Shown here one piece after another: positions 21,539 through 34,467 of a DNA stretch of 64,000 nt. How positions within the stretch are numbered: position 1 is the first letter of the stretch; every line of letters starts with the position of its first letter. Origin of the DNA: Loigolactobacillus binensis (GTDB taxonomy: Bacteria; Bacillota; Bacilli; Lactobacillales; Lactobacillaceae); the NCBI RefSeq assembly GCF_005405165.1, contig NZ_BJDN01000001.1:1-64000 (forward strand). Direction: 5' to 3'. Position numbers and translations under genes: made by a program. The notes under the pieces were generated by a model that worked only from the letters and a program-made list of their open reading frames with translations, had not been told where the DNA came from and searched no databases.

Positions 21539-22798
21539 ATGAAACAAGCAAATGGTTTAGTTAAAACAGCAGTCGTTGCTGTGGTCGCAGCCGTTATTGG
21601 TGGGGGCGTTGTCTACGGAGGCGTGAATTTGTTAGGCAACGATAGTAGTTCCAACGGCAGTGTTGTGAATACGAATAAGGCCGGAACTACCCAAGTCAGT
21701 AACGTTAAGGTCAGCACGAATTCGCAGGTTTCTAACGTTTTTAAACACACTAAAAATGCCGTTGTTTCGGTGATCAACTTACAAAGTCAAAGTAGTAGCG
21801 ATGACAGCGGCCTAAGCGAATTTTTTGGCGGTAGCTCCGATTCTTCTTCCAGTTCGTCTGGCAGTTCTAGTAGCTTGGAAGAATATAGTGAAGGTTCCGG
21901 GGTCATATATAAAAAAGCAGATGGTAAAGCTTATATTGTGACCAATAACCACGTGGTTTCCGGTTCGCAGAAATTGGAAGTTATCCTGAGTGATGGAACC
22001 AAATTGACGGCGAAAAAGGTTGGGACTGATTCAGTGACCGACTTAGCGGTATTGAGTATCAGTGCGGATAAAGTAACGCAAGTGGCCAGTTTTGGTGACT
22101 CAGATAGTATCAAAGTTGGTGAACCAGCGATCGCTATCGGCTCACCTTTAGGCTCTGAATACGCAACGTCCGTGACGCAAGGGATCATTTCTGCTAAGAA
22201 TCGGACCGTTGCGGTAACCGATGAAACCACAGGGCAAGAAACGGGTGCAGCAACAGTTATCCAAACGGATGCGGCCATCAACTCTGGTAATTCTGGTGGC
22301 CCCTTGCTGAACATTCAAGGCCAGGTCATCGGGATCAATTCAATGAAGTTAAGTAGTTCTGGTAGTAGCTCTAGCACCGCAACGGTTGAAGGGATGGGCT
22401 TCGCCATTCCTAGTAACGAAGTGGTCAAGATCATCGATCAGCTGGTTACTAATGGTAAAATCGTACGACCAGCATTAGGTGTTTCAATGGCCGACTTAGC
22501 GAATATCTCAGCGGCGCAACAGAAATCAATTTTGAAGTTACCTGCTAGTGTTACCGGCGGTGTCGTGCTCATGTCAGTGAAAACAAGTTCTCCAGCCGCT
22601 AATGCAGGCTTGAAGAAATACGATGTTATCACGTCCCTAGGTGGTAAAACCGTTACTGACAGCGCTGATCTACGCACTGAATTGTATAACCATAGTGTTG
22701 GTGATAAAGTTGCAGTTCAGTATTATCGCGATGGAGCTAAAAAATCAGGAACAATTACCTTAAGTGAAAATACGACCCAGCTGAAAGTAACTGAATAA
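21539..22798 (+). CDS. htrA: Serine protease HtrA (DegP/DegQ family)
   Basis: 419 residues. An N-terminal membrane anchor (about 8-32), a Ser/Asp-rich linker (about 85-115), a trypsin-like domain with catalytic His138 (VTNNHVV), Asp168 (SVTDLAVL) and Ser252 (NSGNSGGPL), and one C-terminal PDZ domain (about 310-405). Surface HtrA degrades misfolded exported proteins. CTGGAGGTT precedes the ATG by 6 bp. A strong terminator follows, so it is monocistronic. Its place between yycJ and rlmH is the conserved Lactobacillales order. Confidence 0.96.
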   Translation: MKQANGLVKTAVVAVVAAVIGGGVVYGGVNLLGNDSSSNGSVVNTNKAGTTQVSNVKVSTNSQVSNVFKHTKNAVVSVINLQSQSSSDDSGLSEFFGGSSDSSSSSSGSSSSLEEYSEGSGVIYKKADGKAYIVTNNHVVSGSQKLEVILSDGTKLTAKKVGTDSVTDLAVLSISADKVTQVASFGDSDSIKVGEPAIAIGSPLGSEYATSVTQGIISAKNRTVAVTDETTGQETGAATVIQTDAAINSGNSGGPLLNIQGQVIGINSMKLSSSGSSSSTATVEGMGFAIPSNEVVKIIDQLVTNGKIVRPALGVSMADLANISAAQQKSILKLPASVTGGVVLMSVKTSSPAANAGLKKYDVITSLGGKTVTDSADLRTELYNHSVGDKVAVQYYRDGAKKSGTITLSENTTQLKVTE

Positions 22799-22807
22799 GC
22801 GGCGCTT

Positions 22808-22845
22808 AAAATAAAACCCGGAGGGAATTCGGGTTTTATTTTTTT
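22808..22845 (+). terminator. htrA terminator
   Basis: AAAATAAAACCCG pairs with CGGGTTTTATTTT, with a T tail. Confidence 0.85.
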
Positions 22846-23040
22846 GTTTAAAAATCGGGACTTAATTCAGCGTAGCAACAGTCAATTAGTGACTGTAGAA
22901 CCTGAACGTTCGGTAACACTAAAAATGGTCTAGGAAAACGTAAGCGGATAATCTACTATAGAACCTTACTTCAGCGCAACTTAAGTCGTTACCACTAACT
23001 TTAGATAATGTTAAGAAATAGAAATGTCAATGTTCATAAA

Positions 23041-23400
23041 AGTTGTGAACAGCTTTTTGCACAGCTGTGGATAACTTAATATTGCCGGAATAACACAAAA
23101 TATGGCCGATTAAGTTATCCACAGGAACAAAAGAATGCTGTGCGTAACTTTATTTTTTACTAAATTAATTAATTATAAAGTCTGGTATAATAGGAATTAT
23201 AGGGAATTAAGCGCGTTTTGACGAACAATAACTAAAATGTGGATAACTAAAATAGGAAAAAAAACAAGATTTTTTTGATTACATGATTTAGTACACGAAA
23301 AAAAGTTCGCCACCATATTTAGCCACAGCAGTTGTTAACATGTTGATAACTGCTGTGGACAACTTGTGCACGGTGGTGAATTTGTGGGAAAACTTTTCAA
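23041..23400. other. DnaA-box cluster with A+T-rich stretch (htrA-rlmH intergenic)
   Basis: The 588-bp gap after the htrA terminator holds three perfect DnaA boxes (TTATCCACA): 23066-23074 (minus), 23115-23123 (plus) and 23238-23246 (minus). One-mismatch boxes lie at 23139-23147 and 23354-23362 (both minus). Between boxes two and three is an A+T-rich stretch (about 23149-23206). A 36-bp near-palindrome (CCACAGCAGTT...AACTGCTGTGG, 23323-23358) ends at the last box. This is DnaA-binding DNA by sequence; whether it is an origin part or a titration/regulatory cluster is open. I see no gene in 22846-23433. Confidence 0.75.
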
Positions 23401-23433: not shown

Positions 23434-23916
23434 ATGCTCAATATAAAAATCATTGGTGTCGGTAAATTAAAGGAAAAATATTTAAAACAAGGCATTGCCG
23501 AATACGCTAAACGGCTCGATACCTTTTGTAAATTAGAGTTAGTCGAGGTCGCCGATGAGAAGGCGCCAGAAAAGTTAAGCGCCGCTGAAATGGTCGCTGT
23601 TAAAGAAAAAGAAGGCGCACGGATTCTCGCCAAAATCAAGGACCGCGAGTACGTTTATGCGCTGGCGATCGAAGGTAAGCAGCGCGCCTCTGAGGAATTT
23701 GCCGCCGAACTGGACCATTTAGCGACGTACGGCCACTCGGCGATCACCTTTGTTATTGGTGGTTCGTTAGGTTTAGCGCCGGCGGTAATGCAGCGGAGTG
23801 ACGACCAACTTAGTTTTGGTAAACTGACGCTGCCGCACCAGTTGATGCGGTTAGTGCTGATCGAGCAGGTTTATCGCGGGTTTATGATCAACGCGGGGAG
23901 TCCGTATCATAAGTGA
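23434..23916 (+). CDS. rlmH: 23S rRNA (pseudouridine1915-N3)-methyltransferase RlmH
   Basis: 160 residues. SPOUT-fold signatures are present: [24 protein letters not shown] (SAM-binding knot) and [28 protein letters not shown] at the C-terminal end, the family's invariant tail. It methylates helix 69 of 23S rRNA. AGGGAGGAAA lies just before the ATG. Its leader is the DnaA-box region, so its transcription may respond to DnaA (inference). Confidence 0.97.
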
Positions 23917-25714: not shown

Positions 25715-26257
25715 CTAGTCATGGTAGAATAACTGACCACAGTTATTAGTTAGTTGATTAAATAAAGTAACCGTTGCGGTGATCGCGGCGTCAGAAAAAT
25801 CATGCTCAGCAATGAAAGTGTGGATAAATGCCACGACGGTTGCGGCGTAAAAATTAGCCATATATTTTTTGACCGGTGCGGATAACTGCCGTGGCGCCAG
25901 TAGCTCGCCGATCCATACGGAAAAAGCGTGGTTCAATTCAGCGGTTGCGTCCGACCAGATCAGCAGTTCAAATAGATCAATATTTTGTTGCCAATAAGTC
26001 AGCGTCAACCTAATGAAGGCGGTACTATCCATTGGTTGTTGCGCCAATGAATGAGTAAAAGCGTCCATTTTAAGTTGTAATTGCAACAACAAGGGATCCT
26101 TGAGGGTCAAATAATTGCGGTAGATCGTCGGTCGCGAAATCGCGGCCTTTTGAGCCAATTCAGCGACGGTCAGACTAGCAAAAGAACGGCCTTCTGCTGC
26201 CAATTGACTAAGTGCTTTAATAATTGCTTCGTGTGACGTTGTGCGCCGTTTATCCAT
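25715..26257 (-). CDS. TetR-family regulator
   Basis: 180 residues. The N-terminal helix-turn-helix (ASLTVAELAQKAAISRPTIYRNYLTLKD, about residues 26-53) is typical TetR; the ligand-binding half is divergent as usual. It is divergent from an alpha/beta hydrolase gene, with two palindromes in the 123-bp gap. The expected role is repression of itself and of the hydrolase gene, relieved by an unknown ligand. Confidence 0.85.
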   Translation of the reverse strand: MDKRRTTSHEAIIKALSQLAAEGRSFASLTVAELAQKAAISRPTIYRNYLTLKDPLLLQLQLKMDAFTHSLAQQPMDSTAFIRLTLTYWQQNIDLFELLIWSDATAELNHAFSVWIGELLAPRQLSAPVKKYMANFYAATVVAFIHTFIAEHDFSDAAITATVTLFNQLTNNCGQLFYHD

Positions 26258-29166: not shown

Positions 29167-30045
29167 ATGAAGATCGAAGAAGGTTACATGCCGTTTCGCG
29201 GTTACAAAACTTATTATCGAATCGTGGGTGAACCGAGCAAGGATAAAGCACCGTTGCTATTGCTCCATGGCGGCCCTGGTTCTTCGCATAATTATTTTGA
29301 ATTAATGGATGATTATGCAGAAACAGGCCGGCAATTGATCATGTACGACCAAGTGGGCTGTGGTAAGTCATCGCTGCCAGAGGACGAAAGTGTTTACGTC
29401 AAGGAGACTTGGGCCGAAGAATTAATTGCGTTGCGTAAATATCTGCATTTAGATGAAATTCATATGCTGGGCCAATCGTGGGGTGGCATGTTGGAAATGC
29501 TTTATTTGACCCAATATGACCAGACTGGCGTTAAAAGTGTCATGATCGACGGTTCGCCAGCTTCAATTAAATTGTGGACCCAAGAACAACACCGCTTGAT
29601 CTCTTATTTAAGTTATGAGGATCGTGAAGCCATCGCTGAAGCTGAGCGCACCGGCAACTTCTCAGGACCGAAATATTTAGCGGCAAATGATCGTTATATG
29701 GAACGTTATTGTTGGGATGATCCCGATGAAAACTCACCGGAACCGTTGCGGCGGCCGACTAATGGTAAGCGCGCCAGCTTGATCGCTGAAGGACCTAACG
29801 AATTCACTGAAAATGGTACGATCAGTGATTTTGAAGTTACCGATCAGTTAACGAAGATCCACGTGCCGGTTTTAGTGACTAACGGAACCGATGATTTGTG
29901 CACGCCGTTGATCGCCAAATCAGTTTATGATCATATTCCTGGCGCTAAGTGGCATTTATTTGCCAATAGTCGTCATCTAGCCTTGTTGGATCAGCACGAT
30001 GAATTTATTAGCGTCCTCGATCATTGGCTAGCGGCTAACGATTGA
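29167..30045 (+). CDS. pepI: Proline iminopeptidase
   Basis: 292 residues, the usual PepI length. The S33-family markers are present: LLLHGGPGSSHNYF, nucleophile Ser104 in MLGQSWGGML, acid in NGTDDLCTP near residue 242 and base His in SRHLALLD near 269. It releases N-terminal proline from small peptides and helps lactobacilli use proline-rich milk or plant proteins. It lies alone between its promoter and a strong terminator. Prolinase activity is the main alternative. Confidence 0.85.
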   Translation: MKIEEGYMPFRGYKTYYRIVGEPSKDKAPLLLLHGGPGSSHNYFELMDDYAETGRQLIMYDQVGCGKSSLPEDESVYVKETWAEELIALRKYLHLDEIHMLGQSWGGMLEMLYLTQYDQTGVKSVMIDGSPASIKLWTQEQHRLISYLSYEDREAIAEAERTGNFSGPKYLAANDRYMERYCWDDPDENSPEPLRRPTNGKRASLIAEGPNEFTENGTISDFEVTDQLTKIHVPVLVTNGTDDLCTPLIAKSVYDHIPGAKWHLFANSRHLALLDQHDEFISVLDHWLAAND

Positions 30046-33629: not shown

Positions 33630-34467
33630 AGTTGCGGGCACGCCGTTCTAAATGGTGTAAAAGTGCACCAGTGGCGGCGCGAAAAGCTTTAGGGTGCGCA
33701 CGGACAACGTGGACAACTAAGCGGTCACCGAATGAATTAAAGTAGCGTTGCTTTGGTTTAGGATCGGTAGCGGCAGCATAAAAAACATGGGCCAGATCGG
33801 CGGAAGTGGCGCTGATCCTATTGTTAGCTGAGCTTAGGACGTTACCGAGTACATCAACTAACGGCAGATACGCCGAGTTTGGCTGCAGGTTTTTGCGCAT
33901 ATTTTGTACCGCAATATCGCCCCAAGCTGATTGAGTGCCGCCAGGCTGAACGATCACAGAACGAATCCCAAAGCGTTGTACTTCAAGGTCCAAAGCGTCG
34001 CTCCATTGTTGCAGCGCTGCTTTTGAAGCGTGGTAATAAGCGTTTAGCGGCATGTAAAGATCGCCACCGATCGAAGAAATATTAACGATGCGGCCCGCTT
34101 TTTGCGCGCGCATGGTTGGTAAAGTTAATTTAGTTAATTCAACCGCACCGAAAAAATTAGTTTCAAATTGTTTGCGGACGTTTGCCAGTGGAATATCTTC
34201 AACCGGACCGCCTTCGCCGTAGCCAGCGTTATTGATCAGGACGTCGATTCGTTGTTGTTCAGTTGTAATTAGGTTGATAAAGTTGTGGTTTGATGCGCTA
34301 TCAGTAACGTCCAGTTTAACGGCGTGAATATTAGTACCAGTGGAAATATTTTCCACGCGGCGAGCACCACCATAAACGATCCAGCCACGATGGGCAAACA
34401 ATTGAACAGCTGCTTTACCCATGCCACTACTTGCGCCAGTGATTGCAATTACTTTTTTTGTTGACAT
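33628..34467 (-). CDS. Short-chain dehydrogenase/reductase
   Basis: 279 residues, classical SDR: TGASSGMG cofactor motif at about 10-17, NNAGYG, catalytic Ser in VNISSIGG and YYHASKAAL (Tyr/Lys). The C-terminal half (VIVQPGGTQSAWGD, FNSFGDRLVVHVVR) places it with the oxidoreductases that resemble 17-beta-HSD-type SDRs in lactobacilli. The substrate is unknown. It is similar along its length to the next SDR on the same strand, so the two are probably tandem duplicates, but this one has its own promoter at 34544-34572. Confidence 0.85.
   Translation of the reverse strand: MSTKKVIAITGASSGMGKAAVQLFAHRGWIVYGGARRVENISTGTNIHAVKLDVTDSASNHNFINLITTEQQRIDVLINNAGYGEGGPVEDIPLANVRKQFETNFFGAVELTKLTLPTMRAQKAGRIVNISSIGGDLYMPLNAYYHASKAALQQWSDALDLEVQRFGIRSVIVQPGGTQSAWGDIAVQNMRKNLQPNSAYLPLVDVLGNVLSSANNRISATSADLAHVFYAAATDPKPKQRYFNSFGDRLVVHVVRAHPKAFRAATGALLHHLERRARN

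Follow-up and report, generated by a model that had tools for sequence, protein, structure and literature searches.

Organization of the htrA–rlmH intergenic region

The window, which refers here to the whole stretch of 64,000 nucleotides analysed from Loigolactobacillus binensis, contains an array of DnaA boxes between the protease gene htrA and the 23S rRNA methyltransferase gene rlmH. The main features are given below, and the identity values are those to the window within the genus.

21539–22798, + strand: htrA, trypsin/PDZ protease, the upstream neighbour (ORF; tblastn finds htrA of relatives)
22808–22842, + strand: terminator-like hairpin and T run of htrA
23066–23074, − strand: box A, perfect TTATCCACA; identity 1.00
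23115–23123, + strand: box B, perfect TTATCCACA; identity 0.94
23139–23147, − strand: box C, two mismatches (TGTGCGTAA on the + strand), 24 bp after B; identity 0.87
23183–23191, + strand: extended −10 TGGTATAAT, between C and D, read by eye; identity 0.83
23238–23246, − strand: box D, perfect TTATCCACA; identity 0.96
23319–23327, + strand: one-mismatch box, not kept in the genus; identity 0.50
23323–23358, no strand: near-palindrome that overlaps boxes E and F; its two arms of 18 nt are 89% complementary
23341–23349, − strand: box E, one mismatch; identity 0.94
23354–23362, − strand: box F, one mismatch; follows E at a distance of 13 bp and forms a tandem doublet with it; identity 0.93
23434–23916, + strand: rlmH, 23S rRNA methyltransferase (ORF; Pfam SPOUT_MTase PF02590, E 1.7e-55)

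Three perfect TTATCCACA boxes were located between the two genes in a span of 181 bp, at 23066 (−), 23115 (+) and 23238 (−), as the first-pass annotation had stated. Its count of two one-mismatch boxes was too low; three are present (23319 on the + strand, 23341 and 23354 on the − strand), together with a two-mismatch box at 23139 (−), where two aligned relatives carry the closer match TGTGGATAA. These weak boxes were called by counting mismatches, and they carry the array out to 23362. The A+T-rich stretch said to separate the second and third perfect boxes is real (23150–23209, GC 0.17). The 36-bp near-palindrome is also present; it is composed largely of box-like halves and terminates within the one-mismatch box at 23354. 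It was rightly noted that neither dnaA nor dnaN adjoins the array in the window, the dnaA gene being located on another contig (C13). A fourth perfect box (25819–25827, −) is isolated within a TetR-like ORF of the minus strand (25715–26257).

The genus set comprised eight genomes, and seven Loigolactobacillus sequences were aligned on the window as the reference. The nearest named rlmH loci are those of L. backii and L. iwatensis (84%), and two of the htrA genes of relatives were confirmed by Pfam. The columns of boxes A to F are 0.94 identical to the window, compared with 0.63 for the other columns, and 5000 sets of six 9-mers placed at random gave no identity as high as that of the box columns. 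The A+T-rich stretch is poorly kept in the genus (0.41 at 23160–23174), whereas the adjacent extended −10 reaches 0.83. Just 5' of box A, the stretch AAGTTGTGAACAGCTTTTTGCACAGC (23040–23063) is conserved like the boxes (0.89–0.91) and holds box-like two-mismatch sites; this stretch may be an extension of the array. Another segment, GATTTAGTACACGAAAAAAAGTTCGCC at 23280–23313, is conserved in the genus (0.76–0.82) and contains no DnaA box; a short GCGAA/TTCGC-like inverted repeat is found there in relatives.

Box frequency in the window and across genomes

The window contains four perfect boxes where 0.53 are expected, and none of 100 shuffles had as many. The looser pattern TTATNCACA occurs seven times, a total reached by 7 of 100 shuffles; because this degenerate total is unremarkable, the signal lies in the clustering and not in the total. 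The draft genome (97 contigs) holds 29 perfect boxes, with no other pair less than 500 bp apart on one contig, and the Poisson estimate for three perfect boxes within 181 bp anywhere in it is about 5e-5. The complete genome G297 of the same genus has 44 perfect boxes, and groups of at least three within 500 bp are found only beside dnaA and at the array. Among the complete box listings, the array is the only such group apart from dnaA in G297, G127, G056, G130, G266 and G214. Several consensus DnaA boxes are clustered here outside oriC beyond the chance expectation. The genome G058 (family f3) has a single perfect box at rlmH and a different group outside oriC (C1:2697296–2697400), in which three perfect boxes span 105 bp at a distance of about 71 kb from the opposite end of the chromosome record.

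Conservation among Lactobacillales and other Bacilli

A comparison of the htrA–rlmH region in other Lactobacillales, which the first-pass annotation had proposed as a check, revealed conservation. At least two TTATNCACA boxes lie within 450 bp upstream of rlmH in 182 of 218 loci (L034/L035 and L043/L044 being apparently the same two species, each counted twice, and L047 having only 111 bp available upstream). By family, the counts are 23/25 (f1), 16/16 (f2), 23/23 (f3), 9/11 (f4), 4/17 (f5), 0/1 (f6), 8/15 (f7), 11/13 (f8) and 15/17 (f9), with 73/80 for the named loci. The upstream regions contain 691 boxes; first-order Markov sequences predict 9.15, and the highest count in any of 20 simulated sets was 14. 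The backward TTATNCACA pattern occurs 11 times in the same regions. Over the 218 loci, TTATNCACA reaches a density of 4–11 per kb within the 400 bp preceding rlmH, and at distances above 700 bp the density is mostly less than 0.5 per kb. Inside rlmH, an excess was also observed in the bin at 300–400 bp (33 boxes), with TTATNCACA recurring at positions +339 and +395 of many loci in f3 and f9; this excess is probably due to codon usage.

Among the loci of at least 9 kb, 55 of 78 have at least three boxes before rlmH, compared with 27 of 22,007 other 450-bp segments in those 78 loci. All 27 come from four loci. Three of these (L066, L067 and L071) carry the array 1.5–2.1 kb upstream of rlmH, and in the fourth (L112) boxes adjoin htrA as well as rlmH. 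An equal box density in many unrelated intergenic regions, which the first-pass annotation had named as evidence against its proposal, is not what these counts show.

Outside the order, at least two boxes within 450 bp were found in 17 of 42 loci, drawn mostly as the best-scoring from the 97 genomes with a match; the other 25 lack them, many of these retaining htrA upstream. Boxes were present in all loci examined of f11 (3), f17 (4), f19 (4), f22 (2), f24 (1), f28 (1) and f40 (2). No locus with at least two boxes within 450 bp was found in f12, f13, f14, f15, f20, f25, f26, f29, f30, f31, f33 or f38, although f38 has three boxes just past 450 bp. Because the class-level counts are mixed, the array is widespread yet not universal in Bacilli, and the htrA–rlmH gene order alone is not sufficient for it. 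No prior report of such conservation was found in the open literature searched.

Two further observations concern particular families. The array looks tandemly duplicated in genomes labelled Listeria-like, a guess based on size and gene order, namely in L201 (genome G093) at −681 to −142 from rlmH, in L273 (7753–8277) and in L274 (8071–8595), the box positions recurring at an offset of about 401 bp. The f17 loci L233, L238, L239 and L247, which are Staphylococcus-like (again a guess), have three to five boxes directly upstream of rlmH. We take rlmH to be orfX, the attachment gene of SCC elements; if so, the DnaA boxes in f17 would border the SCC insertion site.

Spacing of the boxes

Spacing was analysed in 152 non-redundant arrays, with that of L256 left out as redundant. 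Boxes on the same strand and 12 (±1) bp apart occur 121 times. Randomised positions gave a mean of 37.5, and over all distances in 200 randomisations the count peaked at 63; no other spacing stands out as strongly as the same-strand distance of 12–13 bp. The randomised maxima are also exceeded by opposite pairs at distances of 13 and 23 bp, and narrowly by the (−,+) pair at 85 bp (31 versus 28). A pattern of five intervals was read from the same data, with 86 bp from A to B, 24 from B to C, 98 from C to D, 88 to 103 from D to E and 12 or 13 from E to F. At least four of these intervals are kept in 38 of 152 arrays, compared with a mean of 0.01 and a maximum of 1 in 300 randomisations, the rule itself being derived from these arrays. 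The window array keeps three; among the arrays away from rlmH, all five are kept in G130 and G060, four in G266 and three in G214. Scores are low in f3, f4, f8 and f9, and the pattern is missing from many named Bacillaceae. A single universal geometry was rejected on these grounds, since the five intervals recur only in certain families, and for the others nothing beyond the 12–13 bp doublet can be claimed. Shared ancestry, and not selection alone, can maintain such spacing.

Relationship between the array and the neighbouring genes

The array is usually retained where the htrA–rlmH interval has inserted or rearranged genes. Among the 138 Lactobacillales loci outside the named set, 29 are without two boxes in the 450 bp, and a displaced array was located for 16 of them: seven in f7 (L192–L196, L198 and L199), two in f8 with inserted sugar-uptake and bgl-type genes (L273 and L274), six in f5 (G266, G214, G060, G068, G130 and G004) and one in f1 (L129 of G102). 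The remaining 13 are G246, G067, G137, seven f5 loci, G005, G016 and G047. True losses or relocations occur in the order, namely in G246, G047, G005 and Ligilactobacillus equi (L052). For example, rlmH of G246 (L137) is located downstream of an alpha/beta-hydrolase gene like that at 29167–30045 of the window and has no boxes upstream; from this arrangement, the gene itself seems to have moved.

In G130, the array and an LPXTG-protein gene come after the wal-htrA genes, and rlmH is 121 kb off with no box upstream. In G266 and G214, the array adjoins neither htrA nor rlmH and is flanked by two convergent genes, one for a LacI-type regulator and the other for an ABC transporter or TrkH. Together with these two, convergent flanking genes were found at 13 loci; the others are those with an OsmC gene (L194, L195, L196 and L199), a QueT gene or unassigned ORF (L066, L067, L071 and L129) or KtrA (G004, G068 and G060); a subset of the flanking genes was assigned by Pfam, and the others were read from the similarity of their first residues. 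An extended −10 was not found between the convergent neighbours in 11 of the 13 loci, and three f7 arrays facing a co-directional MarR gene have one. Conversely, htrA is missing upstream and the boxes stay with rlmH in Pediococcus (L068 and L070), Periweissella (L058 and L059), G032 and G259. Domibacillus and some relatives have an inserted gene flanked by boxes on both sides. A strict tie to rlmH is ruled out by the arrays displaced from it, and a strict tie to htrA by Pediococcus, Periweissella, G266 and G214. The comparison separates the site from the gene, as the boxes survive the loss of rlmH, the loss of htrA and the switch to convergent neighbours.

Alternative explanations

Chance or compositional clustering might be suspected, since the intergenic DNA is A+T-rich and the TTATNCACA total of the window is unremarkable; however, the 691 boxes against 9.15 expected, the scarcity of the backward pattern and the conservation of the box columns above the remainder make it extremely improbable. 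A secondary or relic origin, in which the array and the A+T-rich stretch once opened or still open the DNA, would account for the box cluster beside such a stretch, and the tandem boxes with their distance of 12–13 bp are similar to the box pair in the basal unwinding system (PMC8287927). The oriC has its own box groups at dnaA, however. The complete chromosome of G297 (2,951,508 bp) opens with dnaA (from 346; domain 346–831), and its perfect-box groups lie at 2951130–2951390, at dnaA, and at 34051–34232, the array, about 34 kb from dnaA/oriC. In the draft genome, about 10 kb separate dnaA from the end of C13 and 23.4 kb separate the start of C1 from rlmH; together these would agree with the distance in G297 if the two contigs abut. 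Array–dnaA distances elsewhere range from 23 kb (G056) to 585 kb (G163), and because of this range tight proximity to the origin is not conserved and closeness to oriC is a weak explanation. The A+T-rich stretch is not kept in the genus. A strict DnaA-trio run (four in a row with at least two CTA, stricter than the published rule of any three NAN) was absent from all 152 arrays, that of the window included, whereas it was found between dnaA and dnaN in both positive controls, the genome of the window and G297. An origin is thus unlikely, and we regard the secondary or relic form as very improbable; the suggestion of a displaced origin part is not supported, with oriC at dnaA in G297 and no strict trios in the array.

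A DnaA-operated rlmH promoter deserves more weight. With DnaA occupying boxes that flank the −10 as well as boxes further downstream, the complex would repress or time rlmH, tying ribosome modification to replication. The extended −10 TGGTATAAT is a candidate rlmH promoter with a predicted leader of about 240 nt; a strict sigma-70 scan of the window gave a minus-strand site only and did not report TGGTATAAT, there being no required −35 on the + strand. The element, which lies between boxes C and D, is kept in the genus, the box density climbs towards rlmH, and the boxes accompany rlmH in the lineages without htrA upstream (Pediococcus, Periweissella, G032 and G259). Furthermore, an extended −10 faces rlmH in 51 of 130 non-redundant arrays and faces away in 14, and DnaA was reported to repress the yyzF-yydD operon (PMC4447404) and to regulate yyzF-yydABCD (PMC8203912). 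However, the motif is absent from 79 of the 130 non-redundant arrays upstream of rlmH, the array persists in G130 without rlmH downstream, and the arrays between convergent genes mostly lack the element (present in 2 of 13 versus 51 of the 130 upstream of rlmH, a difference that is small taken alone). The boxes do not always accompany an rlmH promoter, as G130, G266, G214, G060, G068, G004 and others illustrate. Control of rlmH is accordingly unlikely to explain the array. As to the DnaA-controlled rlmH promoter put forward by the first-pass annotation, the conserved −10 and the regulation reported in PMC8203912 are consistent with a possible secondary role in the window, but such control cannot be what the array does in general. 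An RNA element in the leader was also considered and rejected: a permissive Rfam search returned eight matches far below the gathering scores, several of them microRNA families on both strands, and they were taken to be chance palindromes.

Proposed role of the array

We consider it probable that the array is an origin-proximal, extra-oriC DnaA reservoir or regulatory cluster, a counterpart of that at yydA in B. subtilis, which would also affect rlmH where a promoter is present. Of the three readings offered by the first-pass annotation, the DnaA-titrating cluster is the best supported because the array persists once its neighbours change. The best reading is that the array is neither an origin nor only an rlmH operator; where a promoter is present, control of rlmH is likely as an extra role. 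This reading starts from what was observed: the boxes themselves, how they are conserved and spaced, and the fact that they persist beside altered neighbours. DnaA would bind the strong boxes A, B and D and then the weak tandem pair E–F, and would build a multi-protomer complex on the boxes. Duplicated soon after origin firing, the array would hold DnaA, leaving less free DnaA for re-initiation; with a promoter inside the array, as in the window, the same complex would modulate rlmH. By analogy with B. subtilis, DnaA is expected to bind the array and removal of the array to make initiation earlier; for Loigolactobacillus, we infer the timing by duplication and the effect on rlmH. A bolder idea, which is tentative and for now rather doubtful, is that the array represents an ancient DnaA-control element found in many Bacilli and independent of particular genes. 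As an ordered DnaA nucleoprotein array, it would take the place of the E. coli datA/DARS elements, switching or storing DnaA according to nucleotide state, and selection would act on its geometry and not on the adjoining genes.

PMC13220808 describes it as an open question how Firmicutes keep DnaA in check in the absence of datA, DARS, Hda, SeqA and Dam. In view of PMC5295017, a lone cluster may matter little, which is a point against the reservoir reading. Further points against it are the 25 of 42 class-level loci without two boxes, the losses or relocations within the order and the range of 23 to 585 kb in the distance from dnaA. Few perfect-box groups exist outside oriC in the fully listed genomes, so that lactic acid bacteria provide a chromosome with one main cluster outside oriC, in which one deletion could test what took six in B. 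subtilis.

Comparison with known DnaA-binding systems

This kind of array is already known from B. subtilis, and the present analysis adds the conservation counts, the persistence beside changed neighbours, the spacing and the absence of strict trios. The yydA gene is presumably rlmH, and we assume that the B. subtilis cluster and the window array lie on the same chromosome side as the wal-htrA-rlmH genes. Both clusters sit directly upstream of rlmH with several intergenic DnaA boxes. The homologous position was found in Bacillaceae loci other than B. subtilis, and for B. subtilis itself it follows from PMC4447404. The first-pass annotation had pointed to a DnaA cluster at yydA, and that paper confirms it: the region upstream of yydA is among eight prominent regions bound by DnaA in vitro, with seven sites and an apparent Kd of 0.16 uM for ATP-DnaA, and DnaA appears to repress yyzF-yydD (PMC4447404). 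The operon yyzF-yydABCD is also among eight sets directly regulated by DnaA (PMC8203912). Deletion of six clusters led to early initiation, which was strong only with all six deleted and was partly relieved by returning one (PMC5295017); we infer that the yydA cluster is among the six. In contrast to the window array, the B. subtilis region contains the small gene yyzF (PMC4447404), and DnaA binding was measured there. The array geometry of Bacillaceae relatives also differs from the Lactobacillaceae pattern. Another high-affinity region of B. subtilis (PMC4447404) is located between convergent genes, like the 13 displaced arrays, although its position is unrelated.

The oriC and its basal unwinding system share DnaA boxes with the array, including tandem pairs; whereas the array has no strict DnaA-trio run, and dnaA is about 34 kb off in G297. 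The datA, DARS1 and DARS2 elements of E. coli differ in that their target is the nucleotide carried by DnaA and that IHF, and also Fis, takes part. PMC13220808 describes datA, DARS and IHF as absent in B. subtilis. Like the array, however, the E. coli elements are non-coding multi-box DnaA elements outside oriC that are independent of the neighbouring gene (PMC5295017).
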